NCBI GenBank assembly: GCA_949538625.1
Contig: CATISD010000023.1
Location: 1-44,799, forward strand
DNA: 44,799 bases
Direction: 5' to 3'
Source: Acidimicrobiales bacterium AG-410-I20
GTDB lineage: Bacteria > Actinomycetota > Acidimicrobiia > Acidimicrobiales > MedAcidi-G1
Below, in pieces: positions 4,290 to 28,066 of this stretch (the stretch's first letter is position 1; each line of letters starts with the position of its first letter). Position numbers and translations under genes: made by a program. The notes under the pieces were generated by a model. It was not told where the DNA came from. It ran no database searches and worked only from the letters and a program-made list of their open reading frames with translations.

Positions 4290-4293
4290 GGAA

Positions 4294-9835: not shown

Positions 9836-9838
9836 CCA

Positions 9839-11327: not shown

Positions 11328-12529
11328 TAAGTTGCCTCCTCAAACTCTTGAGAAGCTCTTTGACTTTTTGCTTTACGAATAGACGCCATGAGCGCTAAGG
11401 CTCCAATAGTCATGCCTATTAAACCCACCATGATGACAATCCAAGATTGCCATTGTCGATCATTTGCAATATTTAAAGCTGCAATTAAAAGGAACCATCC
11501 TAAAGCTGCTGGGATAAGTACTTTCCAACCAAGATCCATGAGCTGGTCATACCTAAGTCTTGGAAGAGTAGCTCGGAGCCAGACAAAAACGAAAAGGAAC
11601 ATCCCCACTTTTAAGAAGAACCATAATGGTGGCCAAATCCATGAGACACTTTCGATCAGTATCGGACCATTTGGCCCTCCTAAAAATAGTGTTACTGCTA
11701 TAGCGGACATAGTTATAACGTTCATGAATTCCGCAAGGAAGAAAAGAGCGAAACGTAAGGCACTGTATTCAGTGTGGAATCCTCCGACTAATTCCTGTTC
11801 TGCTTCTACTAGGTCGAAAGGTGGCCGATTAAGTTCCGCTGTTCCTGCAATGACAAAAATAATAAATGGCACTACCCCTGTAGTTGCTAAATTCCAATTC
11901 CAGGTTGATTGATCTGAAACAATTCCGTTTGTTGATAATGTCCCGCTCATTAAAAACACTGTGGCAATTGAGAGTCCAAGAGCTGCTTCGTAACTGATCA
12001 TTTGGGCAGAAGAACGAACAGCTCCTAACAATGGATACTTAGATCCTGATGACCATCCAGCAAGCATGACCCCATAAACAGCAATTGAAGACATCGCAAG
12101 GAAGAAAAGAATCCCTATTGGAGGGTCAGCAACTTGAACTAACGTTTCGCGGCCGAACCACGTAACGATGCCTTCTTTACCATCACGAAAATCTCCGCCG
12201 ATTGGAACAATTGCAAAAACTAGAAATGCAGGTACAAGTGACAGATAAGGAGCAAGTTTGAACACAAATCGATCTGAGCGATTTGGTATTAAGTCTTCTT
12301 TAAAAAATAACTTTATTCCGTCGGCAAGTGTTTGAAGTATTCCCCAGGGCCCAGCGACAGAGGGGCCAATTCGGTTCTGCATGTCACTTATCAATTTTCT
12401 TTCAAACCAAATCATCAACATGACTGCTACGAGTAAGAAAGCAAACGCAATCCCAACTTTCATTAAAACGATAAGTACTGCAGTAAGGTCTATATTTCCA
12501 CTCAGTAATGGATCGGTCCCAAGAATCAT
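11327..12529 (-). CDS. nuoH: NADH-quinone oxidoreductase subunit H (NuoH1)
   Basis: The quinone-chamber membrane subunit of the 14-subunit complex. It has 400 residues. The quinone-loop signature AELNRPPFDLVEAEQELVGG is close to canonical, followed by FHTEYSALRFALFFLAEF. An extra hydrophobic segment at the C-terminus (WIVIMVGLIGMTIGALALMA) and a basic tail make it longer than NuoH2. It begins on the nuoG stop codon. The contrast with NuoH2 in the same operon is useful for judging what is altered there. Confidence 0.95.
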   Translation of the reverse strand: MILGTDPLLSGNIDLTAVLIVLMKVGIAFAFLLVAVMLMIWFERKLISDMQNRIGPSVAGPWGILQTLADGIKLFFKEDLIPNRSDRFVFKLAPYLSLVPAFLVFAIVPIGGDFRDGKEGIVTWFGRETLVQVADPPIGILFFLAMSSIAVYGVMLAGWSSGSKYPLLGAVRSSAQMISYEAALGLSIATVFLMSGTLSTNGIVSDQSTWNWNLATTGVVPFIIFVIAGTAELNRPPFDLVEAEQELVGGFHTEYSALRFALFFLAEFMNVITMSAIAVTLFLGGPNGPILIESVSWIWPPLWFFLKVGMFLFVFVWLRATLPRLRYDQLMDLGWKVLIPAALGWFLLIAALNIANDRQWQSWIVIMVGLIGMTIGALALMASIRKAKSQRASQEFEEAT

Positions 12530-15003
12530 TATTTTGAAACCACCGTTAAATCGGTTACAGGAATAGACGCGTCTATGAGTTCTGAAGCAGCAAACCTTCC
12601 ATGGTTGAACCCAATATGAACAGTCCCTTTTGCTACTTTTGAATCTGGTCTAGCGGGTAGAACCACTGATCCTTTTGGTCCAGTAACTTCTACTTCTTGA
12701 CCTTTTTCAACTCCGAGAGCGGCAAAATCAGTTGGCTCAAATCCGAGAAAAGAATCTGGGGCTAAGCCTTTCAGTGATTGACTATGGCTGTTAAATACTC
12801 CTTGGTCATACATTGATCTTGTGACCACTAAACGGAATGAGTAAGCGTCATGACTCTGAACTTTGGTTTCTTCTGGCCGTAACAATTCAAGTTCACCTTC
12901 AACCAATACGCCTTCGCGCACGTTGTTAGAAAGTGTTTCAATGACGTTGTTGTGGTTAGGTGAAATTTTTTCAATTTCTGCCCAAATTTCTTCAATTGAG
13001 TTAAACCCAAGATCTTGATTTAAGTAGTACGCAAGGTCTACTGCAATCATCCAGTCGGGCCGCGCTGTTCCAGGAGGTGTTACTTTTCTTGAAACTAAGC
13101 TGATACGTCCTTCTAAGTTGGTAAAAGTCCCATCTGCTTCTGTTGGGCCTGCAGCCGGAAATACTATGTCAGCTTTCTGATTAGTCTTGGTTGGAAATAA
13201 ATCAATTGCGATGACTTTTTTTGTATTGTCGATAGCTTTTTGTGCGAGTTCTTTGTCAGGAAAATCTCCAAGTAAATCTGCTCCTAGGAGTAATAGAACG
13301 TCTATCTCTCCCTTTTCTGCTGCTTTCAGAGTTTCTAAGGTTGTATTTCCTTTGTGTGCGGGTGTTGTTGGCCATACTTCGTGAATGGCTGTTTGATTTG
13401 CCGTAAATGTAACTCGTCCAGGTAATAAATTTGGAGCCATACCCATATCAAAAGCTCCATGAACGTTTCCCCGTCGTAATAGGGATAGAAATTTAACATC
13501 TGCTAAGCGGTCATATAGGGCTAAAGCAGCGTCTACGACTGGTCCTTCTGCTTCAGCTAAAGAGGAACGACCAAGCAACACAGTTACGTCATCTGTGTTT
13601 TGTAATAACGCTCCGACAGTCTTTGCTTCTTCAGGGTCAACCCCCCCGATTGGAGCCACACCACCATCTTCAAACATTGCTTGTATTACTTCCAGTGTTT
13701 CTCCTGGTCTAATTCGAAGGCTATGTGTGGCGTATGGGGTTAACCCAGTTGATGCAGGTGTTAACTCAATAAGAGTCGCTCCGTCATGCACCACAGCATG
13801 ACGAATACGCAAGTAAAGCGAACCTAGTTCTTCTTTTAGGTCTGGACCTAAAAGCACTATTGTTCCTCCCGGACGACAAGCTTGGTTGATTGTTGCACGA
13901 GGCAGTCCGAGTAACACCTCCGCTGGAAGACCATCTCCAATCTGAGCATCTACATGATCTGTTCCTAAGATTCCTTTAGCAACTTTTGTCCATGCATACT
14001 GTGATTCATTGGTTAATCGTGAACCTCCAATTACAGCTATTCGATCCGATGAAGTTTCACTTAGAGAAGCGGCAGCTACTTTTAGAGCTTCTGGCCAAGA
14101 AGCTTTTTCTTGCTGAGAATTCGTATCTTTATTTTTCGCAATTAGCGGAGTATGTAAGCGATCAGGGTGACTAAAGGCTTCAAAAATAAACCGCTCTTTA
14201 TCGGAAAGCCATCCCCAATTCACTGAGTCTGAATCCACTCCTTGAAGACGTAAAACTTGATTTCTGGAAGCTTGTATAGAAATACGGCTTCCAACTGAGT
14301 CGAACATGCTGGTTGATTCTGCTTCCTCAAGGTCCCATGGTCTTGCTTTGAAACGGTAGGGCCGAGCGGTGAGTGCACCGACAGGACATATCTGTACAGT
14401 ATTTCCGCTGAAATAAGAACTAAATGGCTCTTCAGGAAAAGTGTTTACTTCAGTTTGAGCGCCTCGTCCTTGGAAGTGTATTAGTTTGTCTCCAGCTACC
14501 TCGTCAGCAAATCGAGTACATCGGTCGCAGAGAATGCATCTTTCTCGATCTAAATAGACATTCTCATTTATAGGTATAGGTTTTTCAAAGTTACGCTTTG
14601 GTTCGATGTACCGGCTTTCACCAGGTCCGTAAGCGAGTGTTTGATCCTGCAGAGGACATTCTCCTCCTTTGTCACAAATTGGACAGTCAAGAGGGTGATT
14701 TATGAGAAGAAACTCTAAAACACCATCTTGTGCTTTAACAGTTTTTTCTGATTCAGTTTCAACGGTCATCCCTGGCTGACAAGTCAACATGCAAGACGGC
14801 TGCAAACTTGGCCCTCTTCCAGTATCAACTTCTACAAGACACATGCGGCACATCCCTACCGGCTTAAGGCGAGAATGATGGCAAAATCTTGGAATTTCGG
14901 TACCCATACGCTCAGCGGCGTCGATTAAAAGTTCCCCAGGGTTCGCAATTACTTTTTCCCCATTAAGAACTATTTCAATTTCATTCATTGTTTCATCACT
15001 CAT
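12529..15003 (-). CDS. nuoG: NADH-quinone oxidoreductase subunit G (NuoG)
   Basis: The large Fe-S subunit of the NADH-oxidising arm. It has 824 residues. Visible cluster sites are a 2Fe-2S site (CHHSRLKPVGMCRMC and a downstream Cys), the His-Cys3 site HPLDCPICDKGGEC, and the CILCDRCTRF...CPVGALT 4Fe-4S site. The remainder is a molybdopterin-oxidoreductase-like fold that has lost its cofactor role in this family, with an FDMGMAPNLLPGR stretch and a C-terminal molybdopterin dinucleotide-binding-like domain. Its ATG overlaps the nuoF stop (ATGA). There is only one NuoG in the window, so only the first complex I set has its own NADH arm here. Confidence 0.95.
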   Translation of the reverse strand: MSDETMNEIEIVLNGEKVIANPGELLIDAAERMGTEIPRFCHHSRLKPVGMCRMCLVEVDTGRGPSLQPSCMLTCQPGMTVETESEKTVKAQDGVLEFLLINHPLDCPICDKGGECPLQDQTLAYGPGESRYIEPKRNFEKPIPINENVYLDRERCILCDRCTRFADEVAGDKLIHFQGRGAQTEVNTFPEEPFSSYFSGNTVQICPVGALTARPYRFKARPWDLEEAESTSMFDSVGSRISIQASRNQVLRLQGVDSDSVNWGWLSDKERFIFEAFSHPDRLHTPLIAKNKDTNSQQEKASWPEALKVAAASLSETSSDRIAVIGGSRLTNESQYAWTKVAKGILGTDHVDAQIGDGLPAEVLLGLPRATINQACRPGGTIVLLGPDLKEELGSLYLRIRHAVVHDGATLIELTPASTGLTPYATHSLRIRPGETLEVIQAMFEDGGVAPIGGVDPEEAKTVGALLQNTDDVTVLLGRSSLAEAEGPVVDAALALYDRLADVKFLSLLRRGNVHGAFDMGMAPNLLPGRVTFTANQTAIHEVWPTTPAHKGNTTLETLKAAEKGEIDVLLLLGADLLGDFPDKELAQKAIDNTKKVIAIDLFPTKTNQKADIVFPAAGPTEADGTFTNLEGRISLVSRKVTPPGTARPDWMIAVDLAYYLNQDLGFNSIEEIWAEIEKISPNHNNVIETLSNNVREGVLVEGELELLRPEETKVQSHDAYSFRLVVTRSMYDQGVFNSHSQSLKGLAPDSFLGFEPTDFAALGVEKGQEVEVTGPKGSVVLPARPDSKVAKGTVHIGFNHGRFAASELIDASIPVTDLTVVSK

Positions 15004-16409
15004 TGTTCCCCCTCTACTGGGGCTGCGATGACTGGGATGCTCTCACGGAGTGTTATCCGGCTTTCAAACTCATCTCTAAAACGGCGTATTGCTGAAACGA
15101 TTGGAGCGACTGATGATGGGCCTAAAGGGCAAATCGTGGTTTGGCTGGGTGGAAAAGGAACTGCTTCGAGTCCCTGATCGCTAAAGGCCGCTACCGGATA
15201 AGGACCAGGACTTATATTGTCTCCTATATCCAAAAGAAGTTCGATGTCTGATGGCCTGCCTTTACCTTCATAGATTCGACGTAAGATTTGTTCTTCCCAT
15301 GTAGTTCCTTCTCGGCACGGTGAGCATTTCCCGCAAGACTCTCTAGCGAAAAAACGAACTACTCTTAAGCAAGCTTTAACAGCATCTGTTGTTTCGTCCA
15401 TAACTACGATGGCTCCTGAGCCAAGCATTGATCCAGCGTCTCCCACAGGTTGAGCTTCTAACGGCAGGTCAAGGTGTTCTTCAAAAAACCATGGAGCGGA
15501 TCCTCCCCCAGGTATAAACATTTTAAGTTGATTTCCATCTCGAATGCCTTGGCAGAAATTCTCTCCATAAAACAAATCACGAAATGTTGTAACACCTTGT
15601 TCAACTTCATATACCCCCGGCCTATTTACATGTCCGGATATGGCAAATAATCGTGTGCCAGGAGATTTTTCCGATCCCATTTCTTTGTATGCAGAAGCAC
15701 CGTTGTCAATTATCCAGGGAACATTTGACAAAGTTTCTACGTTATTTACGATTGTTGGCTGACCATAAAGACCTATTGCGGCTGGGAAATATGGCGGCTT
15801 AAGACGGGGCATGCCTCTGTTGCCTTCAAGGCTTTCAATAAGTGCAGTTTCCTCTCCGACAATATAAGCACCGGCACCCCAATGAAGAATAATGTCAACT
15901 GAGAACTGTGTTCCTAGGATCTCGCGACCAACGTAGCCAGCTTCATAAGCTTCATTAAGTGCTGCCGCTATACGTTCTTGGGCTAAAGCCATTTCTCCTC
16001 GTACATATAAGAAGCATTGAGAAAGGCCAAGTGCATAACAAGCAATAAGGCATCCTTCAATTAACTGATGAGGGTCTCTTTCCATAAGAAGGCGATCTTT
16101 GTAAGTCCCAGGTTCACTTTCATCTCCATTAACTACGAGATATCTTGGCCACACTCCTTCAGGGCAGAATCCCCATTTCACTCCGGCAGGGAACCCAGCA
16201 CCACCTCGGCCTAGTAAAACGGCGTCACGTACTTCATCGTGAACTTCTGAAGGTTTTCTTTCAAGAGCTTTACGAAGCCCGTTGTATCCACCTGTGTTCA
16301 AAAATCTCTCTAACGTAAATGAGTCCTCGAATTTGAATCTTTCAGTAATGAGTTTCGGCCCATCATTATTTATATAACCAGCGGCAAAGACAGGAGCTGA
16401 AGCAGTCAT
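15000..16409 (-). CDS. nuoF: NADH-quinone oxidoreductase subunit F (NuoF)
   Basis: The FMN-containing NADH-oxidising subunit. FMN and NADH sites show as LGRGGAGFPAGVKWGF and GEETALIESLEGNRGMPR. The N3 4Fe-4S cluster motif is SCGKCSPCREG with the distal Cys in TTICPLGP. I choose the ATG at 16409 (MTASAPVFAAG, 469 residues), not 16442: it overlaps the nuoE stop as ATGA and has AAGGAG 8 bases upstream, while the longer version would run 11 codons into nuoE. Confidence 0.95.
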   Translation of the reverse strand: MTASAPVFAAGYINNDGPKLITERFKFEDSFTLERFLNTGGYNGLRKALERKPSEVHDEVRDAVLLGRGGAGFPAGVKWGFCPEGVWPRYLVVNGDESEPGTYKDRLLMERDPHQLIEGCLIACYALGLSQCFLYVRGEMALAQERIAAALNEAYEAGYVGREILGTQFSVDIILHWGAGAYIVGEETALIESLEGNRGMPRLKPPYFPAAIGLYGQPTIVNNVETLSNVPWIIDNGASAYKEMGSEKSPGTRLFAISGHVNRPGVYEVEQGVTTFRDLFYGENFCQGIRDGNQLKMFIPGGGSAPWFFEEHLDLPLEAQPVGDAGSMLGSGAIVVMDETTDAVKACLRVVRFFARESCGKCSPCREGTTWEEQILRRIYEGKGRPSDIELLLDIGDNISPGPYPVAAFSDQGLEAVPFPPSQTTICPLGPSSVAPIVSAIRRFRDEFESRITLRESIPVIAAPVEGEQ

Positions 16410-17056
16410 GATTGAACTCCTTCTGGGCTTTGATTCATCCAATTCGGAGCATTCTTTGATTCTTCTGGTGGGACTATCCCTGCTTTACGATCTGACGGAA
16501 TGTGCTGTTGAATTCGGGACAAAGTTCCATGAGGGGGAATTTCCCCATCATCGCCTTGGTTTCCTTGGCCTAATGGGCTCCGGCCAGAACGTAAATCAGC
16601 CACTACTTCATTAAGTACATGCTCATTAGCCCGATGGAAATACCGATAATTTACTGTGAAGCATGGAGCTTCTGTGCAGGCTGCAATACATTCAACATCT
16701 TCAAGTGTGAATAAACCGTCTTCAGTAGTCTCACCATCTGATATCCCAAGAGTTGATTCTGCGTGCTCTAGAAGTTCTTCACCTCCTAGAAGTAGACAAG
16801 AAATGTTCGTACATATGTTTATTAGATACTTTCCTACAGGATGGAATTTGAACATTTCATAAAAGCTGCCTGTTCCTAAGACTTCGGCAGATGTGACTCC
16901 TGTTAATTCAGCAATCTGAGTCATTGCTTCATTGGTGATCCAACCGCTTTGTTCTTGCGCTAGGTGGAGTAACGGAATCACCGCCGACTTTGGACGAGGG
17001 TATTTTCCGATAGTTTCATGAGCCCGACGGAGATTTTCTTCGGTGAAGTAAGACAT
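16406..17056 (-). CDS. nuoE: NADH-quinone oxidoreductase subunit E (NuoE)
   Basis: The 24-kDa-type thioredoxin-fold subunit carrying 2Fe-2S cluster N1a beside NuoF. The four Cys are visible as CTNISC and CIAACTEAPC. It has 216 residues; about the last 60 are polar and low in complexity, likely disordered (GQGNQGDDGEIPPHG...). Its ATG overlaps the nuoD1 stop (TAATG), with GGGGGAGG upstream as a strong ribosome site. Confidence 0.94.
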   Translation of the reverse strand: MSYFTEENLRRAHETIGKYPRPKSAVIPLLHLAQEQSGWITNEAMTQIAELTGVTSAEVLGTGSFYEMFKFHPVGKYLINICTNISCLLLGGEELLEHAESTLGISDGETTEDGLFTLEDVECIAACTEAPCFTVNYRYFHRANEHVLNEVVADLRSGRSPLGQGNQGDDGEIPPHGTLSRIQQHIPSDRKAGIVPPEESKNAPNWMNQSPEGVQS

Positions 17057-18348
17057 TACCGATCGACCTCCCCCATGATTGGGTCTACTGAGGAAATCAC
17101 TGCTACTCCATCTGCTATTAAGCCACCTTCCATCAGATGAGGGAGGGTTTGGAGATTTACGAAACTTGGTCCACGTATATGCATCCGGTAAGGGTTAGGG
17201 CCTCCATCAGAAACGATGTAGCAGCCAAGTTCCCCTCTTGGGCTTTCTACTGCTACATAGGCTTCACCTTCTGGAACATGAAAGCCCTCAGTGAATATTT
17301 TGAAATGATGTATTAATGCTTCCATCGATTCATCGATTCTTGCTCTTGGTGGTGGTGTGACTTTTTTATTCTGGATTCGGTAATCACCCTCGGGCATGCG
17401 TTCTAGGATCTGTTCAATTATTTTTAATGATTCACGAATCTCATTTAAGCGGATAGCAAAACGGTCAAAACAATCCCCGTATGTTCCGACTACTACATCA
17501 AAGTTGACTTGATCATAAGCGAGATAAGGGGCATGACGACGTAAGTCCCATGCGTAGCCAGTGGATCGCAGAATTGGTCCAGTTGCTGATAGGGCGAGGG
17601 CTTCAGCCGGGTTTAATACCCCTACCCCTTGTAATCGCTCACGGAAAATAGGCTGACCAGTCTGCAAAACGTCATACTCTTCTAGGCGGGGAGGAATGAT
17701 TTCGAGCAACTTCTTTACATCTTCCTCCCAACCATCGGGAAGATCTGCTGCTACTCCACCTGGCCGGATGTAGTTATGATTCATTCTTAGGCCAGTTACT
17801 TTTTCGAAGAAACGAAGAACTTCTTCACGCTCCCTCCAGCCATAAATCATCATTGAAACAGCGCCTAAATCCATCCCATTTGTTGCCTGAAATAATAAAT
17901 GAGAAGAAACCCTGTTGAGTTCGCACATCAGCATACGAATCCATGTCGCCCTAGGAGGGATCTCAAGACCTAATAGTTTTTCGGTTGCTAACGAAAAAGC
18001 TAACTCAGAAAAAAGTGGGGCTGCATAATCCATACGCGTAACGTTGGTGGCTCCTTGTAGATAACTTAATCCTTCAGCCGTTTTTTCCATTCCAGTATGT
18101 AAGTAGCCAATTACTGGCTTTGACCGGAGAATCGTTTCCCCTTCCATCTCTAACATAAGCCGAAGCACTCCATGGGTAGAAGGATGAGATGGCCCCATAT
18201 TCAGAATCATTCTGTGATCGTCGTCAAAGGTCTCCGGATCGCCCACGAGAGCATTTGCCTCTTCCTCGTTAAGACGAAGAACTGGACTCTCATCTCTTCT
18301 AAAGACTCTTTCTGATTCTCCGAGAAGTAGCTCTTTACTATCTGTCAT
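17056..18348 (-). CDS. nuoD: NADH-quinone oxidoreductase subunit D (NuoD1)
   Basis: The quinone-site subunit of the 14-subunit complex. I place the start at the ATG at 18348 (MTDSKELLLG, 430 residues); the track's 18429 start reads through nuoC1. An AGGGAGG ribosome site lies 5 bases upstream, and the ATG overlaps the nuoC1 stop. With this start the quinone-headgroup pair falls at H59 (SHPSTHG) and Y108 (TRMDYAAP), the same spacing as in characterised complexes. The canonical end SSVDPIMGEVDR is present. This makes it the orthodox copy against which NuoD2 can be judged. Confidence 0.95.
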   Translation of the reverse strand: MTDSKELLLGESERVFRRDESPVLRLNEEEANALVGDPETFDDDHRMILNMGPSHPSTHGVLRLMLEMEGETILRSKPVIGYLHTGMEKTAEGLSYLQGATNVTRMDYAAPLFSELAFSLATEKLLGLEIPPRATWIRMLMCELNRVSSHLLFQATNGMDLGAVSMMIYGWREREEVLRFFEKVTGLRMNHNYIRPGGVAADLPDGWEEDVKKLLEIIPPRLEEYDVLQTGQPIFRERLQGVGVLNPAEALALSATGPILRSTGYAWDLRRHAPYLAYDQVNFDVVVGTYGDCFDRFAIRLNEIRESLKIIEQILERMPEGDYRIQNKKVTPPPRARIDESMEALIHHFKIFTEGFHVPEGEAYVAVESPRGELGCYIVSDGGPNPYRMHIRGPSFVNLQTLPHLMEGGLIADGVAVISSVDPIMGEVDR

Positions 18349-18884
18349 TAGAGCCTCCCTACTTCTGGAGAGAATTGAACTGGAATTTGCCCTACATCGT
18401 GGTCTTTTCGTAGTGGGTGTCCTTCCCAACTATCAGGGAGAAGAATTCGAGAATGATCAGGATGCCCATCAAATTTCACACCGAATAAATCCCATACTTC
18501 TCTTTCCATTGCTTCTGTTCCAGGAAATAAATCAAAAAGAGATGGAACGGTTGGATCGTCAGTACCGGCTTGTACTCGAAGCCGAATCCTATTTCCTTGA
18601 CTGTGATTTATGAGGGAAATTACCACTTCAAATCGTTCTGGCTTGATGCAATCAGGTAAATCTTTTCGGCCAGGATGTGTTAAATAATCAACAGCAGTGA
18701 CATCGATTGCCATACAGAAACCCTCTTCCTTTAAAAGAGCCACTGTTTCTGACAACTGATGTGGCATCAAATGGAGAACTGTCTGCCCATGCAACTCTGT
18801 AACAGGTACTCCATAAGATGTAGGCCCGGAATACTCTTGAATTAAGTCTTCAGTCTCCTCAACTGTTTCTTCTGCTTCCGTCAT
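18348..18884 (-). CDS. nuoC: NADH-quinone oxidoreductase subunit C (NuoC1)
   Basis: The 30-kDa-type peripheral subunit. Signatures are EREVWDLFGVKFDGHPD and SWEGHPLRKDHDVG. It has 178 residues, compact compared with NuoC2 (227). It starts 5 bases after nuoB1 and ends overlapping the nuoD1 start (TAATG). Confidence 0.93.
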   Translation of the reverse strand: MTEAEETVEETEDLIQEYSGPTSYGVPVTELHGQTVLHLMPHQLSETVALLKEEGFCMAIDVTAVDYLTHPGRKDLPDCIKPERFEVVISLINHSQGNRIRLRVQAGTDDPTVPSLFDLFPGTEAMEREVWDLFGVKFDGHPDHSRILLPDSWEGHPLRKDHDVGQIPVQFSPEVGRL

Positions 18885-18889
18885 GATGT

Positions 18890-19492
18890 TTATTTCTCTA
18901 CTATCTCAACGGGTGTTTCATTACTAACTTGAGGAAGATCTAAATCAATTGCAGCGCCTCCTTGGTTTATCTCTCTACGGCGTGTAAGTTCACCGTTTTG
19001 AATGTTGTCGTGCAATGTGAGGATTGCGTGCATCAGTGTTTCCGGTCCAGGAGGACACCCAGGAGCATAAACATCCACAGGCACTATTTGATCTACTCCT
19101 TGAACAATGGCGTAGTTATTAAACATCCCACCACTTGAGGCGCAAACTCCCATTGAAATAACCCATTTGGGTTCCATCATCTGGTCATAGATTTGACGCA
19201 ATATCGGGGCCATTTTTTGTGAAACCCGACCTGCCACGATCATGAGGTCTGCTTGTCGGGGAGAGGCTCGAAAGACTTCCATCCCATACCTTGCAAGATC
19301 ATAATGTGCTGCTCCTGTCGCCATCATTTCAATAGCGCAGCAAGCAAGACCAAAAGTTGCAGGCCAACAACTTCTTGCCCGTGACCATTTAACTAAATCT
19401 TCAATCCGGGCCGTAACAAAATTATGTTCTAGCCCTTCTAAACCTTCAGCTGCAATGTGGCTTGTATCGCCGAGTAGTGGAATACGTGCCAT
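18890..19492 (-). CDS. nuoB: NADH-quinone oxidoreductase subunit B (NuoB1)
   Basis: The subunit that carries cluster N2. The Cys set is complete: [20 protein letters not shown] and [10 protein letters not shown]. The start is taken as the ATG at 19492 (MARIPLLGD, 200 residues); the longer track version reads the nuoA1 3' end out of frame. AGGAG lies 10 bases upstream, and the ATG shares a base with the nuoA1 TGA stop. NuoB1 and NuoB2 differ throughout, consistent with old paralogues. Confidence 0.95.
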
Positions 19493-19989
19493 CAGATTGC
19501 TACTCCTGTGTCTTCTTCTGGTCGCCCTTCTAGACCCACTTGACGTACACCAGTATCCTGTATGCGAACTACAGTGGATTGAGTTGTTCGATCTGTTGAA
19601 ATTTGACCAGAGTTGCTTCGACCTCTCCGAACAGGTCCCCATTCAAGAGCACCATTCCCAATTAGATATATAAATGATTCAAATACGGCTACAGAAAAAA
19701 TAATTACAGCGACAAAACCCGAAAGCCCGAGCTCTCGATGCGCTAATGCCCATGGGTAAAAGAAAATAATTTCAATATCAAAAACAATAAAAATCATCGC
19801 GACAAGAAAGAAACGCACTGGAAACCGTTCTGGATTATTTTTTGTTGGCACTATGCCGCATTCATATGGAGCAAGCTTTTTATCATTTGGGTTTCGAGGT
19901 GCCAATAATTTCGTCGCTACAAAACTTAAAGCAGCAAATAGAAATGCGAGTACTCCTAAAGCGAGGATTGGAAGATATTGGCCGAGCAT
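19492..19989 (-). CDS. nuoA: NADH-quinone oxidoreductase subunit A (NuoA1), extended C-terminus
   Basis: A three-helix subunit of complex I. Landmarks are [17 protein letters not shown] in the first loop and [15 protein letters not shown] before helix 3. At 165 residues it is about 40 longer than NuoA2 because of a polar C-terminal extension ([16 protein letters not shown]...) of unknown use. A TAGGAG ribosome site precedes the ATG. Only 43 bases separate it from the upstream bc-module gene, and I see no terminator or promoter there, so the nuo genes are probably cotranscribed with the bc genes. Confidence 0.93.
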
Positions 19990-20032: not shown

Positions 20033-21043
20033 CTAATTCCCCGTTTTTTCAAACTCCTCACGTCGGGCCATGACTTCTTTATCCCGAACGTGAAGCCAAT
20101 AACAAAGTGCTAAAAATATGAATAATGACCCAATGGTGACTAAAGCAGGTCTAAGTCTTACCGTTCCAAGGTCTCGAATCATAATCACTGAGATGACAGG
20201 TTTATTTTCATCAGCTACTGGCCGAGGAGGGGTTTCTCCGGGAGCCACTTCTTGGAAAACGACTTCTTGTAACTGAACTATGCTGTATCGAGTTGGATGC
20301 GTAATTTGAGCTGAACTCTTGATCCACTGCACGATCCGATCTATCCGGTTTGGATTCTCCTTGAGCGAATCCTTACCTCCGCGTGTATATGCATCAAGTA
20401 GTTTGAAATCTGCGCTCGATGTGAAATTTAGTGAAGGATGTTCTAACACATCAGCTACTGCTTGAGCTTGAGCGTCACCGGCGAGTGTAGTTGGTAGTAG
20501 TTTCCAGCCACTTAAATCATTGAAGCCAGCATTCTTAGTTACTTCAGGTGCAACTGCTGCTAATTCTGAGCGAGTTACAATCTCATTTCTCAACTGAACT
20601 GATTCTTGGAGTGCGGCAAGTTCCTCTTCAGATAGATCTGGGTTATCTACTGCGCTTGGAAGCGTATTGTATTCTGCCTCTGCGCGTGGATCATTTGAAC
20701 TTATAACTAGTTCATAACCGCTTGCTAAATCATCTGGATTTGGTAATAAGCGAGCTTCTGGTAGCCCACTTTGTTGTAAGTCTCCAACATTGATATCAAT
20801 TACTTGCCATGATGGACTTTCACCTTTCCAGCCGGTCCCATAAATCCACCAAGTTGCTGCAAGAATCGTCATCCAACCAAAGAACCCTGCAGCTGAGATT
20901 AAAGTACCAAGACGTGTTCCGGAATTTGTAGAAACGATAAGCCAAACTGAGCCCATGAGTACTACAGCTCCTACGGCAACTGTCAAAATACCCCGAATTT
21001 GAGGATCCCAAGCGATTCCAGCCAATGTGATAAGTTCGCTCAC
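20033..21043 (-). CDS. Uncharacterised membrane protein of the bc/nuo cluster
   Basis: I do not recognise a family. The protein has 336 residues: two hydrophobic helices at about 15-38 and 45-67, a soluble loop of roughly 220 residues, and a third helix at about 298-318 with a short charged tail. The loop has no Cys motif, so it probably binds no c-haem or Fe-S cluster; it contains a helical acidic stretch (LSEEELAALQES). The GTG start overlaps the diheme cytochrome c stop (GTGA), and nuoA1 follows 43 bases later. Position alone suggests an accessory or assembly subunit linking the bc complex to complex I. Confidence 0.8.
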   Translation of the reverse strand: MSELITLAGIAWDPQIRGILTVAVGAVVLMGSVWLIVSTNSGTRLGTLISAAGFFGWMTILAATWWIYGTGWKGESPSWQVIDINVGDLQQSGLPEARLLPNPDDLASGYELVISSNDPRAEAEYNTLPSAVDNPDLSEEELAALQESVQLRNEIVTRSELAAVAPEVTKNAGFNDLSGWKLLPTTLAGDAQAQAVADVLEHPSLNFTSSADFKLLDAYTRGGKDSLKENPNRIDRIVQWIKSSAQITHPTRYSIVQLQEVVFQEVAPGETPPRPVADENKPVISVIMIRDLGTVRLRPALVTIGSLFIFLALCYWLHVRDKEVMARREEFEKTGN

Positions 21044-22251
21044 CCTAGGCTCCTCTCATATGCGACAATAGCGGCAATTTGTTCTGGAGTGTAGATCTGA
21101 CTATAGGTAACTGAGGCTCCAGTTTCCCGATCTGTAAGGTCATCATCAACGCGACCACCGAAACCTGGCATACCACCAGTTCCGCTGCGAGCGTTCCCAT
21201 AACTGACGCCTAACTCAGAGCCACTGTGAATAAAGCTTTCTTGATCTCCGGGTGTTGGGAAGTGAGAATTCACACCATAAAGGCTGGGTCCAACAGCACC
21301 CTTACCTGGTTCCCATCCATTGAGAACACCACTTTCAACTAGTTTGGGCCATTCAGTTAATAGCTCTTCCGTGCTTTCAGCATCTACTGCGCCATAAGAA
21401 AATCCTGGTGTGTGGCATCGAGCGCAACTATTTGCTCCTTGAGCTGCAGAATTGTTGAATAGTAATTCTCCATAGGCTAAATAATTTTCACTATCTGGAT
21501 TGGATGCTTCTATTAGCCACGCTTCTACTGCTGCATCTATCTGTTCATCTGAGAAATCTGGATTGGCATGTTTAACTAAAATTCGTGCCCCGGTTGTTAA
21601 TCCGGAATTAACTTCGTTGATTACTTCTTCTTGGTCCAACTGTATTGACCGTAGATAGACAACCAATTGATGAATTTGTTGTTCTGTTAAAGGCCCGCCT
21701 CCGGGAAGCCCCCAGGCGGGCATAGGGCTACCTCCACGTCCATAGTTAAGTATGTGTGTTACTTCTGACTCATCAAATCTTGAGAGTACGGTAGTTAATG
21801 CTGGTGCTTTCCAATCAACTTGAGCAACAAAGCTTCCTTCACTGTCTGTAAGAGTGAAAGAAGTTACTCCGCCAACCCCTCCTGGTCCATGACATCCTGC
21901 ACAGGCTTCTTCATATTCTGCTGCACCTCGTTTTTCGAAACGTTTAACCCAGCCATAGTCAGCATTTTCTTGACGAGCTGGCTCCATTAGCCAATACAAA
22001 GGAAGAATTATAGAAATAGCTGCCAATGTAACAAGAGACCAGCCTAGGTGAGAGTCAAGTTTTTTTGTTTCTAACTCATCATCATCTGAATGTGGTTTAC
22101 GATTTGCAGCTACTTCTATTTCTGAACCGATTTCTCGTTTCCCGATTCGAAAGTTAAATAGGAGATATACCAAAAACCCGACCGCCACAACAGAGGCAAT
22201 AACTACACCTATAGTCCTCTGGGTGCTAGCAGCGAAAATCATTTCGGACAT
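21040..22251 (-). CDS. Membrane-anchored diheme cytochrome c of the bc complex
   Basis: The electron-accepting cytochrome subunit next to the Rieske protein and cytochrome b. Two c-haem sites are visible: CAGCH at residues 117-121, with MPAWG as a likely Met-ligand region, and CARCH at 276-280. Two hydrophobic helices near residues 12-33 and 70-88 precede the haem domains. It resembles the diheme QcrC of actinobacteria in function but has a different arrangement, since classical QcrC is anchored at its C-terminus. It has 403 residues. It would pass electrons to a terminal oxidase that is not in this window. Confidence 0.88.
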   Translation of the reverse strand: MSEMIFAASTQRTIGVVIASVVAVGFLVYLLFNFRIGKREIGSEIEVAANRKPHSDDDELETKKLDSHLGWSLVTLAAISIILPLYWLMEPARQENADYGWVKRFEKRGAAEYEEACAGCHGPGGVGGVTSFTLTDSEGSFVAQVDWKAPALTTVLSRFDESEVTHILNYGRGGSPMPAWGLPGGGPLTEQQIHQLVVYLRSIQLDQEEVINEVNSGLTTGARILVKHANPDFSDEQIDAAVEAWLIEASNPDSENYLAYGELLFNNSAAQGANSCARCHTPGFSYGAVDAESTEELLTEWPKLVESGVLNGWEPGKGAVGPSLYGVNSHFPTPGDQESFIHSGSELGVSYGNARSGTGGMPGFGGRVDDDLTDRETGASVTYSQIYTPEQIAAIVAYERSLG

Positions 22252-22279: not shown

Positions 22280-23146
22280 TCAGTGGTCAGCCTGGCCTAT
22301 ACAGTTAGGCCCTTCAGCTTCTTGACCAGTTGTATTTACTCCAATTGGTGGACCTTGAACAATCATTCCAGTGTTAACTGTTAGAACTCCGTCAGCGACT
22401 GAAACTCCGAACCTGTCCATACCTCTTGGGGCAGGGCCGCCGCGCTTCTCTCCAACTTGGTTGTATTGAGATCCGTGACAGGGGCATTCAAACCATTGTG
22501 AAGAAACGCAGTTAGGTACTCTGCAACCAAGGTGCGGGCATTTCTGATAAAGCGCAACAACACCAGCTTCGAATCCCTGATCAACTCCTGCTGTCATACC
22601 GCTTAATTCGGCTGCTGAATAAGTATTTCGTGCCTTTTCTACTGCATTGTTTGGATAAGCAGTAATCCACATGCGTCCTTCTGGTTTATACAGGAAGCCA
22701 TTATTTGCATCAATTTCCGCAAGGATCTCAACAATGTTTCCAACTTTGATCTTTGACCCAAATCCACTCACCCCTTGAGGCCATAAAAAAGCAATACAGG
22801 CGGCTCCAAAACCTGATAATCCAAATCCCATCATTCCAACCAAACTGCGGTTAAAGAACTGGCGGCGTGTCACTCCCAAAGTTTGAGGATCAGGAGCAAC
22901 AAATACTTCTTCTGGAACTGATTCGACAACTGGGACTGGTACTTCATTTCGTTCTGCGATTGCCGCAGCTTCTACTTCACGCCCAGTAAGTGGTTGTGGT
23001 TCTCTAGATAAAACTGGGTTTGATTTGTCTTTTTGTCGTGCTTCTTTTGATAATCCTGCTGCAACACGATCCCGTCTTTTTGAAGCACCAAAAAGAAGCA
23101 CTGCTGAAAGCACAACCAAGATAATCACAGCAATAGCAATAGCCAT
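22280..23146 (-). CDS. Rieske iron-sulfur subunit of the cytochrome bc complex
   Basis: This subunit oxidises quinol and passes one electron to cytochrome c. The 2Fe-2S ligands and disulfide Cys are visible as CPHLGC at 203-208 and CPCHGS at 221-226. It has 288 residues: a first helix at 2-20, a charged linker, then a twin-arginine motif (TRRQFFNR, residues 93-100) directly ahead of a second helix (MMGFGLSGFGAACIAFLW). Tat-dependent insertion of a helix just before the Rieske domain is known for actinobacterial QcrA and fits this layout. AAGGAG lies 6 bases before the ATG. Confidence 0.93.
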   Translation of the reverse strand: MAIAIAVIILVVLSAVLLFGASKRRDRVAAGLSKEARQKDKSNPVLSREPQPLTGREVEAAAIAERNEVPVPVVESVPEEVFVAPDPQTLGVTRRQFFNRSLVGMMGFGLSGFGAACIAFLWPQGVSGFGSKIKVGNIVEILAEIDANNGFLYKPEGRMWITAYPNNAVEKARNTYSAAELSGMTAGVDQGFEAGVVALYQKCPHLGCRVPNCVSSQWFECPCHGSQYNQVGEKRGGPAPRGMDRFGVSVADGVLTVNTGMIVQGPPIGVNTTGQEAEGPNCIGQADH

Positions 23147-23192: not shown

Positions 23193-23921
23193 TCATAATT
23201 CGAAGAAAAGTCCTGCGTCCCATGGAAATACAAAGTTGAAACCTGGGCCACGGAAGAATGACCCAATCATCACAAGTACTGCCCAAAACATTAAATGCAC
23301 GGTCATAAGCGATATAGCGAATTTACGATCTTCAGGTTTTTTAGATGGATTTTTATCAATGTAAGGAGCCATCACTAAAAGAATGAGCCCCATTCCCGGA
23401 ATAGTTACTCCTGCGACCATTGGATGAAACATTGTTAAAAGTTCTTGAAGACCTAAAAAGTACCAAGGAGCTTTTGATGGATTAGGAGTCTTATTAAAAT
23501 CGGCTAGTTCTAATAACGGGGCGTTCACAAAGATCGAGAACAAAAGCGTAAATAAAGTTATCCCTAACGCAGCTAAAAATTCAATTACTAGCAGATGTGG
23601 CCAGACGTGAACTTTGTCTACGGGGGTTGCTTTAGTGTCTTGAATAGATCCTGACTTTACGACCGCTAGCAACCTTTGAGTGTTGCCATCTGGCCCAGTT
23701 CCTATACCAGGTTCTGAAGGTGGTGGAGATGCGGGCTGGTCCGCGGCTGCTTTTCCTCTGTCAAGAAGATGCGCTGGAATTTTTTCATCTCCAGAAGAGG
23801 CTTCAGCGGAAGTAGTCGACGTATCTGATTCAGTAGAAGCAGGTGTTTCTTCTTTTGCTCCAGCTGCTTTAGCTCTAGCCTCTTCTGCTCTTTTACGTAA
23901 GTGTTCAGGTATTTCTGTCAT
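23193..23921 (-). CDS. Cytochrome b C-terminal half (subunit IV/PetD-like) with a long disordered N-terminus
   Basis: The C-terminal half of a split cytochrome b, which completes the quinol-oxidation site. Three helices lie at about 107-133, 165-187 and 200-222. The Qo motif PEWY of bc1/b6f appears as APWY at residues 151-154 (KAPWYFLGLQELL), so the catalytic-loop Glu is absent. The first 95 residues are Ala/Glu/Ser/Pro-rich and probably disordered. They begin with MTEIPEHLRKRAEEAR and carry a weaker second copy (KIPAHLLDRGKAA) at about 47-59; the same opening occurs in the divergent cytochrome c gene at 25939. Confidence 0.9.
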   Translation of the reverse strand: MTEIPEHLRKRAEEARAKAAGAKEETPASTESDTSTTSAEASSGDEKIPAHLLDRGKAAADQPASPPPSEPGIGTGPDGNTQRLLAVVKSGSIQDTKATPVDKVHVWPHLLVIEFLAALGITLFTLLFSIFVNAPLLELADFNKTPNPSKAPWYFLGLQELLTMFHPMVAGVTIPGMGLILLVMAPYIDKNPSKKPEDRKFAISLMTVHLMFWAVLVMIGSFFRGPGFNFVFPWDAGLFFEL

Positions 23922-23932
23922 GAGTGCCCCGC

Positions 23933-24721
23933 CTATAGCGGCCCTGATATGCCGCCGTCTTTACGGACGCGCCAGAAATGAATAGCCATAAAAATTACAA
24001 TTACAAAGGGCAACATCAGTACGTGTAGCACGTACCACCGAAGCAAAGTATCGGTACCTATTTCTACCCCACCAAGCAAAACAAAGCGGACCTGTTCCCC
24101 GAAAACGGGAGTAAAGCCCATCATGTTAGTTCCCACGGTGACCGCCCATAGAGCTAACTGATCCCACGGCAACAAGTACCCAGTGAATGAGAGAAGGAGT
24201 GTTAGTTGCAAAAGCATTACTCCAATCACCCAGTTGAATTCTCGAGGTGGTTTATATGCACCGTGATAAAAAACTCTTGCCATATGTAAGAACACAGTAA
24301 GAACCATTAGGTGAGCAGCCCAGCGATGCATGTTTCTTACTAAAAGACCAAAGCCAACTGCTGTTTGAAGAATCTGTATGTCATCCCAAGCCTGTGCAGC
24401 TGTAGGTCTATAAAAGAACATCAAAAAGATGCCGGTGACTGTCAAGAGAATAAATAGAAAGAAGCTGAGTCCTCCTAGACAGAGGGTGTAACTGACTTTT
24501 ACGGCATGTCGTTTTACTTTGACCGGATGCAGGTGGTACATAACGCTGTTCATAATTACGTATGACCTGTTTCTAGGACTGTCGCTATATCCTTTTCGGA
24601 AAATTGATCCGGGTCTAAAAATTGACGACCAAGCTTGCGAGTCCTGCATGCGGTCGTTGACTTGACTGAGACGCTCTTGAAGCGCCTGTCCTGCCGGTTT
24701 TTTACCGTTTTCTTCGGCCAC
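23933..24721 (-). CDS. Cytochrome b6-type diheme subunit with a candidate haem ci cysteine
   Basis: The N-terminal, haem-binding half of a split cytochrome b. It has four helices in 262 residues. The bis-His pairs are H132/H146 (RNMHRWAAHL...FLHMARV) and H233/H248 (WYVLHV...AIHFWRVRKDGG). The second pair is spaced by 14 residues, as in b6 rather than mitochondrial-type b. C81 in TLCLGGLSF lies 51 residues before H132, exactly the b6 spacing of Cys35 to His86, where haem ci (cn) is covalently attached. The GTG start at 24721 is taken from the ORF track. It is read in one block with subunit IV, 11 bases apart. Confidence 0.93.
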   Translation of the reverse strand: MAEENGKKPAGQALQERLSQVNDRMQDSQAWSSIFRPGSIFRKGYSDSPRNRSYVIMNSVMYHLHPVKVKRHAVKVSYTLCLGGLSFFLFILLTVTGIFLMFFYRPTAAQAWDDIQILQTAVGFGLLVRNMHRWAAHLMVLTVFLHMARVFYHGAYKPPREFNWVIGVMLLQLTLLLSFTGYLLPWDQLALWAVTVGTNMMGFTPVFGEQVRFVLLGGVEIGTDTLLRWYVLHVLMLPFVIVIFMAIHFWRVRKDGGISGPL

Positions 24722-24764: not shown

Positions 24765-25181
24765 TTATGCGAGCCGCATCCCGTATCCATAACCATGACT
24801 GTTTGTGCGTTGATGACCATCTCCTTCAGGAGGGGCTTCACCAACTCGCCCTAAAATAATAACGCCTGTTGGACAACGATCTACGCAAAGCGCACACCTT
24901 GTACATGCATCGTCATCAATTGTAAAAATCACATGATCGCTTGGGTCTTCGCCTGGTTTTTCAGTCCCAATTGATTCTGAGATTGCATCTGGCGTAACCA
25001 TGTGAATGCACTTCCAAGGACAGATGTCAACACATCCTTCACACATGATGCATTCGGATTGATCAATATGAATAAATTGTTTTGGTTTTACAGATTTGAG
25101 AAGCCAATCAGCATCAACTTCGCGCAAAACATAGTCATCAATGAACTTTGGATGATCAGGATTAGCATCTACACTGCTCAT
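24765..25181 (-). CDS. Dicluster (8Fe-8S) ferredoxin-like protein of the bc cluster
   Basis: A small cytoplasmic iron-sulfur protein. It has 138 residues with two full 4Fe-4S motifs: CIMCEGCVDICPWKC near residue 44 and CTRCALCVDRCPTGV near residue 92. A 40-residue N-terminal extension and a Gly/His/Tyr-rich tail surround the ferredoxin fold. It has no helix of its own, but its ATG overlaps the stop of the preceding membrane-protein gene (ATGA), so the two are likely made together and could form a membrane-tethered pair. Ferredoxins are not standard subunits of bc complexes. A role in feeding or draining electrons at cytochrome b is inference. Confidence 0.85.
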   Translation of the reverse strand: MSSVDANPDHPKFIDDYVLREVDADWLLKSVKPKQFIHIDQSECIMCEGCVDICPWKCIHMVTPDAISESIGTEKPGEDPSDHVIFTIDDDACTRCALCVDRCPTGVIILGRVGEAPPEGDGHQRTNSHGYGYGMRLA

Positions 25182-25633
25182 GATCCCACTCCGTCTTTAA
25201 TTAATGGCCGTCCATACTCTGAAGTTGAAGCTGGCGCATCTTTGTCTTGACCTCTTTGCTGCCAAGATCGCCACATGGCTACGTTCCCACCCAGAGCAAC
25301 GATGTAAATAGCGACAGCAATAAAGTCGCGAATTATGAGATAAGAAAGGGTGAATGGTAATGCCCATTCAACTATTCCTTGTTCTCCTGTCCAAAAAAGT
25401 TTTGGTCCGACGATATAGCGATCTGGTCTCCAATTAAGCTCGCTGTCTGCCCAAACAAGCCATTGATGAGGGACAACTCCATAAATCCACCAGAAGATAA
25501 AAAATACGTAGGTTGCAAAAAGCATGGCTTCGCCCCAAGTAAAAACTTTGTCAGCTGGGCAACGCTTTGTGTACCAATTAATCCCAAGAGCAAGCAATGC
25601 AGTAACAATGATAGATAGTACAAACGCTACCAT
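25178..25633 (-). CDS. Uncharacterised three-helix membrane protein, first gene of the respiratory directon
   Basis: I do not recognise a family. It has 151 residues with helices at about 2-17, 33-53 and 92-118. The loop between helices 2 and 3 is rich in Trp and aromatics (VPHQWLVWADSELNWRPDRY), and the tail is polar. It has no Cys motif and no obvious haem-ligand pair. It overlaps the ferredoxin gene, which suggests it is the ferredoxin's membrane anchor or a small subunit of the b6f-like complex. GAGGAG lies upstream of the ATG, and a Rex operator lies 32 bases before it. Confidence 0.82.
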   Translation of the reverse strand: MVAFVLSIIVTALLALGINWYTKRCPADKVFTWGEAMLFATYVFFIFWWIYGVVPHQWLVWADSELNWRPDRYIVGPKLFWTGEQGIVEWALPFTLSYLIIRDFIAVAIYIVALGGNVAMWRSWQQRGQDKDAPASTSEYGRPLIKDGVGS

Positions 25634-25938
25634 TTAGTTTCAGCTCCTCTATTGGTAAATGGACTTAGTGAAATATTGCACAAAGTTTTGTAATCACTAG
25701 CGTAACCGAACAAGCAGGAACGCGGTGTGCTTCTTTTAAAGTTCCTATGATATTTTTTCTATCATCTCAAACAGAGATTCGGCTATACCAGTAAGACAAA
25801 TTTCTGATAAAAATTTATGTTGATCTATTTGACAAAATCTATGAACTATTACGCCATTTATCGTAAGTCCGCCGCTACCCTCGCGGAAGTACTTATTATT
25901 AATAGTTCCGAACCAGATCCGTTGCCTTGGAGGCCACG
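25634..25938 (-). other. Divergent control region between the bc/nuo directon and the cytochrome c gene
   Basis: About 305 bases without a gene, AT-rich, separating the minus-strand directon from the plus-strand cytochrome c. It contains the Rex-like operator (25666-25683), a 6-base inverted repeat ATGATA-N7-TATCAT at 25747-25765, and a TCCGC...GCGGA inverted repeat at 25868-25887 in the likely leader of the plus-strand gene. A TTGACA lies at 25829 but has no -10 at proper spacing. Promoters must exist for both directions, but I cannot fix them by eye. Confidence 0.6.
25666..25683 (-). promoter_or_regulatory. Rex operator (ROP-like) upstream of the bc/nuo directon
   Basis: The plus strand reads TAGTGAAATATTGCACAA. 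Against the Rex consensus TTGTGAAATATTTCACAA this matches 16 of 18 positions, and the minus strand reads TTGTGCAATATTTCACTA. It ends 32 bases before the first ATG of the directon, where a repressor would block transcription. In Streptomyces, Rex is known to control nuoA-N, cyd and rex-hemACD. A rex gene lies at 35028-35675 of this same window. Binding is inferred from the sequence match. Confidence 0.75.
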
Positions 25939-26679
25939 TTGACTGAAATACCCGAACATCTTTTAAAGCGATCTAAGGAAGCACGAGGTGCAAAATCTGA
26001 TTCGCCAGAACCTGCTGAGGTAAAGCCTGAAGTAGCGCCTGCCGATCAGAAAGTTGAGCCTGTAGCCAAAGAAGAAAAAGTTGAGACTCCACCAAAACCT
26101 AAAGCACCTTACGTTACTTCTGCTAATAAACGTAAGAAAATACCTTGGTGGGCGGCAAGCACTCTTATCTTTCTCCCGCTCTGGGCATATGTTTATGTTG
26201 GGACTCTTGAACGTCCTCCGGAAGAGGCTGAAGGTATTCTTGCTGTAGGCGAACAAGTTTATGATGCTCGCTGCGCTTCTTGTCATGGCGCTAACGGTGG
26301 TGGTGGTAGCGGCCCAGCACTCAACGATGGTGAGTTGCTACTGGTTTTCCCTTCTGTCGCGAGCCAAATGGATTGGGTTATAAAAGGATCTGATATGTAC
26401 GGTATTGGAAATCCTTATGGTGATCCTGCTGTTGGACGAATTGTCGGAGGCGGTATGCCTGGCTGGGGTGATGTACTTACTGCCGAGGAACTCATTGGTG
26501 TGATCCTCTATGAACGATCACACCATGGCGATTCAGAAGAAGATACGGTTCTAGCGGAAGCTGTGGAGCATGCTTTAGAAGATGGATCATTGATGCTTCC
26601 TGAATATTTTGACCCTATGGCTGGGACTATTGAAGACTTAGAATCGCTCTTAAGTCCTCTTGAAGAACATAGTGATTAA
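25939..26679 (+). CDS. Membrane-anchored monoheme cytochrome c
   Basis: A class I-like cytochrome c held by an N-terminal helix, likely carrying electrons outside the membrane between the bc complex and an oxidase. From the TTG at 25939 it has 246 residues: an Ala/Pro/Lys/Glu-rich N-terminus of about 65 residues, a helix at about 68-88, CASCH at 112-116 and MPGWG as the probable Met ligand. I prefer TTG 25939 over the track's TTG 25927 because GGAGG lies 5 bases upstream of it. The product then opens TEIPEHLLKRSKEAR, matching the subunit IV gene across the control region. It is transcribed away from the bc directon. Confidence 0.85.
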   Translation: MTEIPEHLLKRSKEARGAKSDSPEPAEVKPEVAPADQKVEPVAKEEKVETPPKPKAPYVTSANKRKKIPWWAASTLIFLPLWAYVYVGTLERPPEEAEGILAVGEQVYDARCASCHGANGGGGSGPALNDGELLLVFPSVASQMDWVIKGSDMYGIGNPYGDPAVGRIVGGGMPGWGDVLTAEELIGVILYERSHHGDSEEDTVLAEAVEHALEDGSLMLPEYFDPMAGTIEDLESLLSPLEEHSD

Positions 26680-26800: not shown

Positions 26801-28066
26801 ATGAGTAAGCACATCCACGATCTTTTGGTAATAGGAGGAGGCCCCGGAGGTTCTTCGGCTGCCTTTTGGGGTGCTTCATCCGGCCTTGATACTGTTTTTG
26901 TTGAGAAAAAAGTTTTTCCACGCGAGAAAACCTGTGGAGATGGGATACCACCACGTGGCGTTCACCAACTCATGGAAATGGGTCTCGAAGACAAACTCAA
27001 TGATTACCACCGGTTCAACGGATTAAGAGCTCTTGCACATGGCAAAACTTTAGAAATGTCTTGGCCAGAGCATTCCACTTACCCGCAGCATGGATATGTG
27101 ATACGTCGTTGTGATCTTGATCAATTTGTTGCAGAGAATGCAGTGAATGCGGGAGCAAGCCTTCTTCAAGGAGTCGAGGCGCTACGCCCAATTGAAGGAA
27201 AGGACGGAATGCTAGAAGGGGCCGTTTTATTAGATAAAGCAACGGAATCTGAATTCGAAATATATGCAAAGTACGTTGTAATAGCTGATGGAGCGAACTC
27301 AAGATTTGGAAGATCTCTGGGCGCTTCCCGGGACAAGAGCTTGCCTATGGGTATTGCTATTCGGGGCTATTTTGAAAGCCCACTTCACAACGACCCTTGG
27401 ATAGAAAGTTCATTAGATATTCAAGATCGCAATGGAAATGCTATGCCGGGTTATGGATGGATTTTCCCAGTCGGCAACGGAACCATAAACGTCGGTATTG
27501 GTTTGCTTTCAACTTTTCGAGATTATAAATCAATTAACACAAGTCACTTATTTGAAGAGTTTGCGCATTCATTGCCTGAGTATTGGGGAATTGATCCAAA
27601 CAAACCGATAGCTCCACCGACTGGAGGTCGACTACCTATGGCAGGTTCTGTTGGTCCAAAATCTGGACCGAACTGGCTCTTGGTTGGTGATGCTGCAGGA
27701 TCAATTAATCCTTTTAACGGTGAAGGAATCGACTACGCCTATGAAACCGGGAGACTTGCTGCAAGTCTTGTTATTGGGGCTGTTGAACACGACGATCCGG
27801 CAATCTTGACTAGATACTCTGGGATGCTTGAAGATGAATATGGTTTGTATTTTCGGGTAGCCAGTTTATTTGGACGAGTTATAGGCAACCCATTACTTAT
27901 TCGTGAGTTAACTCGGATCGGCATGCGATCTCAACCGTTAATGGAATGGGCGTTGCGTGTAATGGCAAATTTATTACGTGATGAAGATAAAGGGTTTGCA
28001 GAAACGGCGTATAAAGCGATTGCTAACGTTGTGCGGCTCGTTCCTGACAGACTAGTTCATAACTAA
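26801..28066 (+). CDS. Geranylgeranyl reductase family flavoprotein, probable menaquinone side-chain reductase
   Basis: An FAD-dependent reductase that saturates isoprenoid double bonds. It has 421 residues: a dinucleotide fold at the N-terminus (LLVIGGGPGGSSAAFWG), the family-specific KTCGDGIPPRG near residue 50, and the second FAD motif WLLVGDAAGSINPFNGEGID near residue 292. The family includes MenJ of Mycobacterium, which reduces one unit of the menaquinone tail. Placement beside a bc/complex I cluster supports a quinone substrate, although archaeal-type lipid or chlorophyll reductases share the fold. The ribosome site is weak. The 120 bases before it hold no clear terminator for the cytochrome gene. 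Confidence 0.85.
   Translation: MSKHIHDLLVIGGGPGGSSAAFWGASSGLDTVFVEKKVFPREKTCGDGIPPRGVHQLMEMGLEDKLNDYHRFNGLRALAHGKTLEMSWPEHSTYPQHGYVIRRCDLDQFVAENAVNAGASLLQGVEALRPIEGKDGMLEGAVLLDKATESEFEIYAKYVVIADGANSRFGRSLGASRDKSLPMGIAIRGYFESPLHNDPWIESSLDIQDRNGNAMPGYGWIFPVGNGTINVGIGLLSTFRDYKSINTSHLFEEFAHSLPEYWGIDPNKPIAPPTGGRLPMAGSVGPKSGPNWLLVGDAAGSINPFNGEGIDYAYETGRLAASLVIGAVEHDDPAILTRYSGMLEDEYGLYFRVASLFGRVIGNPLLIRELTRIGMRSQPLMEWALRVMANLLRDEDKGFAETAYKAIANVVRLVPDRLVHN

Follow-up and report, generated by a model that had tools for sequence, protein, structure and literature searches.

Does the cytochrome b6 encoded at this locus carry haem ci, and if so, what is that haem for? Haem ci (also called cn) is usually regarded as the hallmark of b6f and of the firmicute complexes; what it is for, be it cyclic electron flow or Qi-site chemistry with menaquinone, is unsettled. 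The locus lies on a 44,799-nucleotide stretch of DNA from Acidimicrobiales bacterium AG-410-I20 (contig CATISD010000023.1), which we call the window, and its features are collected in Table 1. The initial annotation of the window held that C81 of b6 is placed to bind this haem as Cys35 does in chloroplast b6, that the complex would be b6f-like in mechanism, and that the neighbouring ferredoxin gene fits such a complex.

Table 1. Features of the bc operon and its immediate neighbours in the window.
Feature	Coordinates	Strand	Basis
P5, conserved membrane protein	20033..21043	(-)	after dihaem cytochrome in 61/61 loci
Membrane-anchored dihaem cytochrome c (CAGCH 117, CARCH 276)	21040..22251	(-)	PF13442/PF00034; CxxCH scan
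Rieske 2Fe-2S protein (CPHLGC / CPCHGSQY)	22280..23146	(-)	PF00355; motif conservation
Subunit IV (petD-like), 242 aa; E114; Qo motif APWY (residues 151-154)	23193..23921	(-)	PF00032 9e-7
Cytochrome b6 (petB-like), 262 aa, GTG start	23933..24721	(-)	PF00033 1e-45; PDB b6 E 1e-48; fold; residue columns
C81 codon (TGT), where haem ci is proposed to be attached by a single thioether	24479..24481	(-)	aligned with b6 Cys35; 158/158 conserved
2x[4Fe-4S] ferredoxin, 138 aa, directly upstream of b6	24765..25181	(-)	Fer4 families
P7, three-helix membrane protein, overlaps ferredoxin start	25178..25633	(-)	just upstream of ferredoxin in 76/76 loci
Divergent membrane-anchored monohaem cytochrome c (CASCH 116)	25927..26679	(+)	PF13442; 63/68 loci

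The triplet proposed to encode the attachment site reads ACA on the forward strand and TGT on the reverse, where it is codon 81 of the b6 open reading frame and encodes the only Cys of the protein. Translation bore out the spacings on which the proposal was built: C81 precedes H132, the first bL ligand, by 51 residues, and of the two haem-ligand pairs, H132/H146 and H233/H248, the second has the b6-like 14 residues between its members. When we searched the PDB with phmmer, the five top matches were all b6 subunits of b6f complexes (E about 1e-48). In the alignment with 2zt9 (residues 30-215), C81 shares a column with Cys35, at the n-side start of helix A ('VSYTLCLGG' in the window, 'VNIFYCLGG' in 2zt9). 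b6f b6 chains also made up all ten best PDB fold matches of an AlphaFold2 model of moderate confidence (pLDDT 78, pTM 0.64). The other residues of the site are present as well: G84 and F249 correspond to Gly38 and Phe203, which line the haem ci site in b6, and R253 corresponds to Arg207, near a propionate. In cyanobacteria, plastids and firmicutes, the corresponding Cys is known to carry a covalent haem (PMC5526843).

The Cys proved to be kept among close homologues, and the variation that the initial annotation had named as counting against it did not occur. In all 158 actinobacterial family members, the most distant about 63% identical, the C81 column holds Cys, and G84, F249 and R253 are invariant in the same set. 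The column is one of 96 invariant columns out of 262, and at every other b6 column Cys occurs in five or fewer of the 158 sequences. Because C81 is the sole Cys, is present throughout the family and stands among columns that are nearly Cys-free, these alignments argue that its match to Cys35 is more than chance. The 80 named genome loci that we retrieved carry titles that are almost all Acidimicrobiia or Actinomycetota, and a phylum-wide sample of 397 genomes contained C81-type b6 in many further actinobacterial families; the plasmid collection searched held no close relatives. In other genomes of the window's genus and family that are 94-98% complete, the C81-type b6 is the only cytochrome b. 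These genomes also contain menA and haem-copper oxidases, and we therefore read the complex as the ordinary complex III.

If C81 belongs to a cofactor site in use, then the Cys and its pocket would be expected to be conserved together and lost together. Ten sister operons, which share their genomes with the C81 type, allowed this comparison. Their b6 is about 50-55% identical and retains the haem ligands, with the Cys replaced by Arg in nine cases and by Tyr in one; the gene order, as far as each contig reaches, is that of the C81 type (ferredoxin domain, b6, subunit IV, Rieske, cytochrome c). At the Cys35 column, C is found in the C81 type, in firmicute-like actinobacterial operons and in b6f, R or Y in the Cys-less paralogues, and L or M in canonical QcrB. 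At Gly38, the C81 type and the firmicute-like set have G, the Cys-less paralogues F, V or Y, and QcrB E; at Phe203, the first two have F, the Cys-less paralogues I or L, and QcrB L or M. Arg207 is R in all but canonical QcrB, which has W, V or F. Position 114 of subunit IV is E in the readable C81-type members and in four readable firmicute-like operons, and H in the Cys-less paralogues. Four positions thus change together: Cys35, Gly38, Phe203 and the subunit-IV Glu, the pattern that a used cofactor site predicts. In a tree built with these trait columns left out, the C81 clade (support 99/96) and the Cys-less paralogues (100/96) both fall within one clade (100/100), the nearest outgroups, firmicute-like and b6f, carry the Cys, and the trait changes state three times in all, with two outgroup branches so long that the deep order is unsure. 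On this tree, the ancestral state of the group is Cys, and the paralogue branch lost it. A deep-branching b6 relative at locus L169 (6675-7328) has Gly in place of Cys, keeps Gly38, Phe203 and the subunit-IV Glu, and has no ferredoxin nearby; it is a possible half-way state in the loss of haem ci.

The co-varying Glu suggests how the haem may be held from the side of subunit IV. The window protein contains WPHLLVIEF, and its Glu, E114, is in register with that of firmicute-like actinobacterial subunit IV (FPDHxxxE). Its equivalence to the firmicute Glu ligand is drawn from these firmicute-like actinobacterial sequences rather than from an actual firmicute sequence. b6f PetD was not among the phmmer matches of subunit IV, and the firmicute-like protein aligned to PetD only past the Glu region; in that run, the Glu met the Asp of the bc1 'TIKD' motif, presumably bovine Asp228. 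In an ungapped comparison with PetD, E114 falls one residue before Phe40, which we take to be the position altered in the b6f Phe-Tyr mutant. The Glu position has been described as the site where that mutant was studied, Glu ligation has been proposed for haem ci of the menaquinone type, and the potential of haem cN is low, about -50 mV, where Glu is its second ligand (PMC12954380). Judged from the aligned sequences, E114 is probably the residue that binds haem ci as second axial ligand.

Homology and the co-segregation of Cys35, Gly38, Phe203 and the subunit-IV Glu together give good support to an actinobacterial bc complex with haem ci, and it is very likely, from sequence evidence, that the window b6 carries it covalently. 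With high confidence, we propose that this is the operon of the main menaquinol:cytochrome c reductase, with a split b6 and subunit IV, haem ci, and a family-specific ferredoxin of putative role. In a Q-cycle, electrons bifurcate at Qo between the Rieske protein and bL and return via bH to Qi. The complex III proposed here would consist of the split cytochrome b, Rieske protein and dihaem cytochrome c and would pass electrons from menaquinol to cytochrome c. A third haem, ci, would be present besides bL and bH. It would lie close to bH towards the cytoplasm, joined by one thioether to C81, with G84 and F249 packed against it, R253 nearby and E114 of subunit IV as its probable ligand. Electrons at Qi would run from bH to haem ci and on to menaquinone, a low-potential arrangement suited to this quinone; the Rieske/dihaem-c branch would lead through cytochrome c to the haem-copper oxidase. 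The dihaem cytochrome belongs to the CBB3 III family. Most members keep the Ser and Tyr of the Rieske motif CPCHGSQY, residues that raise the potential (PMC12954380), and together with menaquinone this would leave room for unusually low b-haem potentials. The divergent monohaem cytochrome c is a possible electron-acceptor partner, and P5 matched no Pfam or NCBIfam family.

Several further features of the region are worth recording. An N-terminal motif, TEIPEHLxKRxxEAR / IPAHLLxR, is common to subunit IV, where it occurs twice (23912 and 23780, reverse strand), and to the divergent cytochrome c (25948, forward strand); it is found again in relatives at locus L061, from the cultured Aquihabitans sp. 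G128, which has the same operon, and at locus L086, and perhaps serves in docking. The divergent cytochrome c gene adjoins a gene for a geranylgeranyl reductase family protein (26801-28066, forward strand) whose top NCBIfam score, below the cut-off, is to menaquinone reductase MenJ. The bc operon is followed by two tandem complex I operons (66-19989), one a full nuo set and the other nuoA, B, C, D, H and I. In a genus-mate (locus L195), this second set continues as J, K, L, M and N, without E, F and G, which makes an 11-subunit complex I, probably of the ferredoxin type.

The ferredoxin next to b6 offers another account of the haem. It could donate electrons to haem ci and thereby reduce menaquinone, a route also proposed for b6f in cyclic flow, or take them from bH or ci, in which case haem ci would exist to serve the ferredoxin. 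The association is tight: the gene lies upstream of b6 in 79 of the 79 named loci with enough flank, and every cluster Cys is conserved; complex I without NuoEFG in a close relative is in keeping with the idea. P7, the constant neighbour of the ferredoxin, belongs to no known family, and a PDB fold search with its model (pLDDT 83) gave nothing better than E 5. In the Cys-less sister operons, the homologous ferredoxin domain is present in all ten loci (L159-L168), forming the C-terminal part of proteins some 610-790 residues long, stop to stop, in nine and cut at the contig end in the tenth. These fusion proteins, encoded upstream of b6, have Fer4_20 and Pyr_redox_2 domains and resemble NfnB/GltD-like NAD(P)H flavoproteins. 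The one we tested had its best PDB match in the protein of 9bov/9bp5; 9bp5 is NfnABC of Caldicellulosiruptor, used as a model for the NAD(P) oxidoreductase of anammox Rieske/cytochrome b complexes (PMC12954380).

The same sisters, however, speak against a haem that serves the ferredoxin, as they keep the ferredoxin in fused form and have lost the Cys. Conversely, none of the ten firmicute-like Cys-bearing b6 genes has a same-strand CxxCxxCxxxC open reading frame in the flank read (up to 2.5 kb), and at one C81-type locus, L146, no ferredoxin turned up in 2.5 kb of flank. The ferredoxin does not require haem ci, nor can its presence be predicted from haem ci, and the earlier suggestion that the ferredoxin gene fits a haem ci complex was not supported. 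We consider it unlikely that the haem is there for the ferredoxin, although such electron transfer would be compatible with the complex III proposed above. For that complex, we regard ferredoxin and P7 as constant, family-specific partners, perhaps docking from the cytoplasm, whose role would be independent of the Cys; the ferredoxin probably serves the whole family in electron exchange on the N-side. A more speculative extension, which we put forward tentatively, is that the ferredoxin is a true N-side subunit exchanging electrons directly with bH and haem ci. The family would then span a ferredoxin-linked complex with haem ci and an NAD(P)H-linked sister without it, a modular Q-cycle enzyme wired to low-potential carriers of the cytoplasm.

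It could also be that C81 and its pocket are inherited from an ancestor with haem ci, or are structural, and hold no covalent haem, with menaquinone lying beside bH as in bc1 or the mycobacterial bcc complex. The haem is predicted from sequence, and the b6f group has the CCB1-4 attachment system, whereas we found no homologues of CCB1 or of CCB2/4 in 14 genomes with C81-type b6, in a search that gave a positive result with Synechococcus. YggT/CCB3 was found in 12 of the 14. The same searches likewise found neither CCB1 nor CCB2/4 in B. subtilis, whose b haem is covalently bound (Yu and Le Brun, 1998, as cited in PMC12954380). Because an organism with a covalent b haem shows the same pattern, the absence is uninformative, and the search for attachment factors that the initial annotation suggested counts neither for nor against haem ci. 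Residues merely inherited are also hard to reconcile with a Cys that is invariant in 158 sequences along with Gly38, Phe203 and the subunit-IV Glu, with the joint loss of these positions in the sister clade, and with firmicutes that do bind the haem (PMC5526843). We therefore judge an empty site quite improbable.

Identity as the selenite/tellurite-reduction cytochrome ExtP, raised by a score of 305 against the cut-off of 290 of NCBIfam NF040969, is hardly credible and was rejected, as b6 has no ext porin or multihaem cluster around it, is flanked by the ferredoxin/P7 pair on one side and by the Rieske/dihaem operon and then complex I on the other, is the sole cytochrome b that we found in the genus, and is accompanied by a subunit IV that scores 54 against the ExtQ cut-off of 150. 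As a respiratory b6 exceeds the ExtP cut-off, automatic annotation may mislabel the actinobacterial family.

How closely does the complex resemble known ones? With b6f of cyanobacteria and plastids, it shares the split b6 and subunit IV, the residues Cys35, Gly38, Phe203 and Arg207, the spacing of the second His pair, the b6 C-terminus GISGPL, and the best PDB sequence and fold matches. It differs in having APWY instead of PEWY at Qo, a dihaem cytochrome c instead of cytochrome f, menaquinone instead of plastoquinone, a Glu near the Phe40 position of subunit IV, and the conserved ferredoxin and P7 genes. The claim of a b6f-like mechanism thus holds for the N-side with its predicted haem ci and fails for the Qo motif and the cytochrome c branch. 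The firmicute menaquinol:cytochrome c reductases of Bacillus and Heliobacteria are alike in their link to menaquinone, the Cys in C-x-G-G, and a subunit-IV Glu at the position seen in the firmicute-like actinobacterial b6f-type operons; they have a covalent haem (PMC5526843) and a Glu ligand (PMC12954380). The firmicute-like set, in contrast, has the PEWY motif, lacks an adjacent ferredoxin and forms its own clade in the tree.

The anammox Rieske/cytochrome b complexes (Kustd1480-1485 and Kuste4569-4574; PMC12954380) share the b6-like four-helix cytochrome b, subunit IV and an N-side Fe-S module with the window complex, and are predicted to have haem cN with a Glu ligand (PMC12954380). They contain hexa- or octahaem cytochrome c, whereas the window complex has a dihaem cytochrome, a stand-alone ferredoxin and no flavoprotein. 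The closer parallel to their N-side is in the Cys-less actinobacterial sisters, which carry the NfnB-like NAD(P) flavoprotein with [4Fe-4S] domains that matches 9bov/9bp5; yet the Cys is present in the window complex and absent from the flavoprotein-bearing sister. The canonical actinobacterial bcc complex of mycobacteria and corynebacteria (QcrABC) shares the dihaem c-type cytochrome, the Rieske protein and menaquinone. Its QcrB, however, is a fused eight-helix cytochrome b of about 540 residues without the Cys, with L or M in its place and E at the Gly38 position, unlike the split b6 and subunit IV of the window. Menaquinone, not haem ci, has been described at its Qi site (PMC9162462).

Covalent haem ci was known from cyanobacteria, plastids and firmicutes (PMC5526843) and predicted in anammox bacteria (PMC12954380). 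We found no report of it in Acidimicrobiia or other actinobacteria in the open-licence literature, and a survey behind subscription may already list the Cys. In this family, haem ci seems to belong to the ordinary complex III of an actinobacterial class that is widespread and non-photosynthetic. The observed distribution argues against the ferredoxin as the reason for its existence. Sister operons in the same genomes, which differ in the whole haem ci pocket and, where the Cys is lost, carry an NAD(P)H flavoprotein-ferredoxin fusion, amount to a natural experiment. Comparing the two kinds of operon would test whether the role of haem ci lies in quinone reduction or in the entry of electrons from the cytoplasm.
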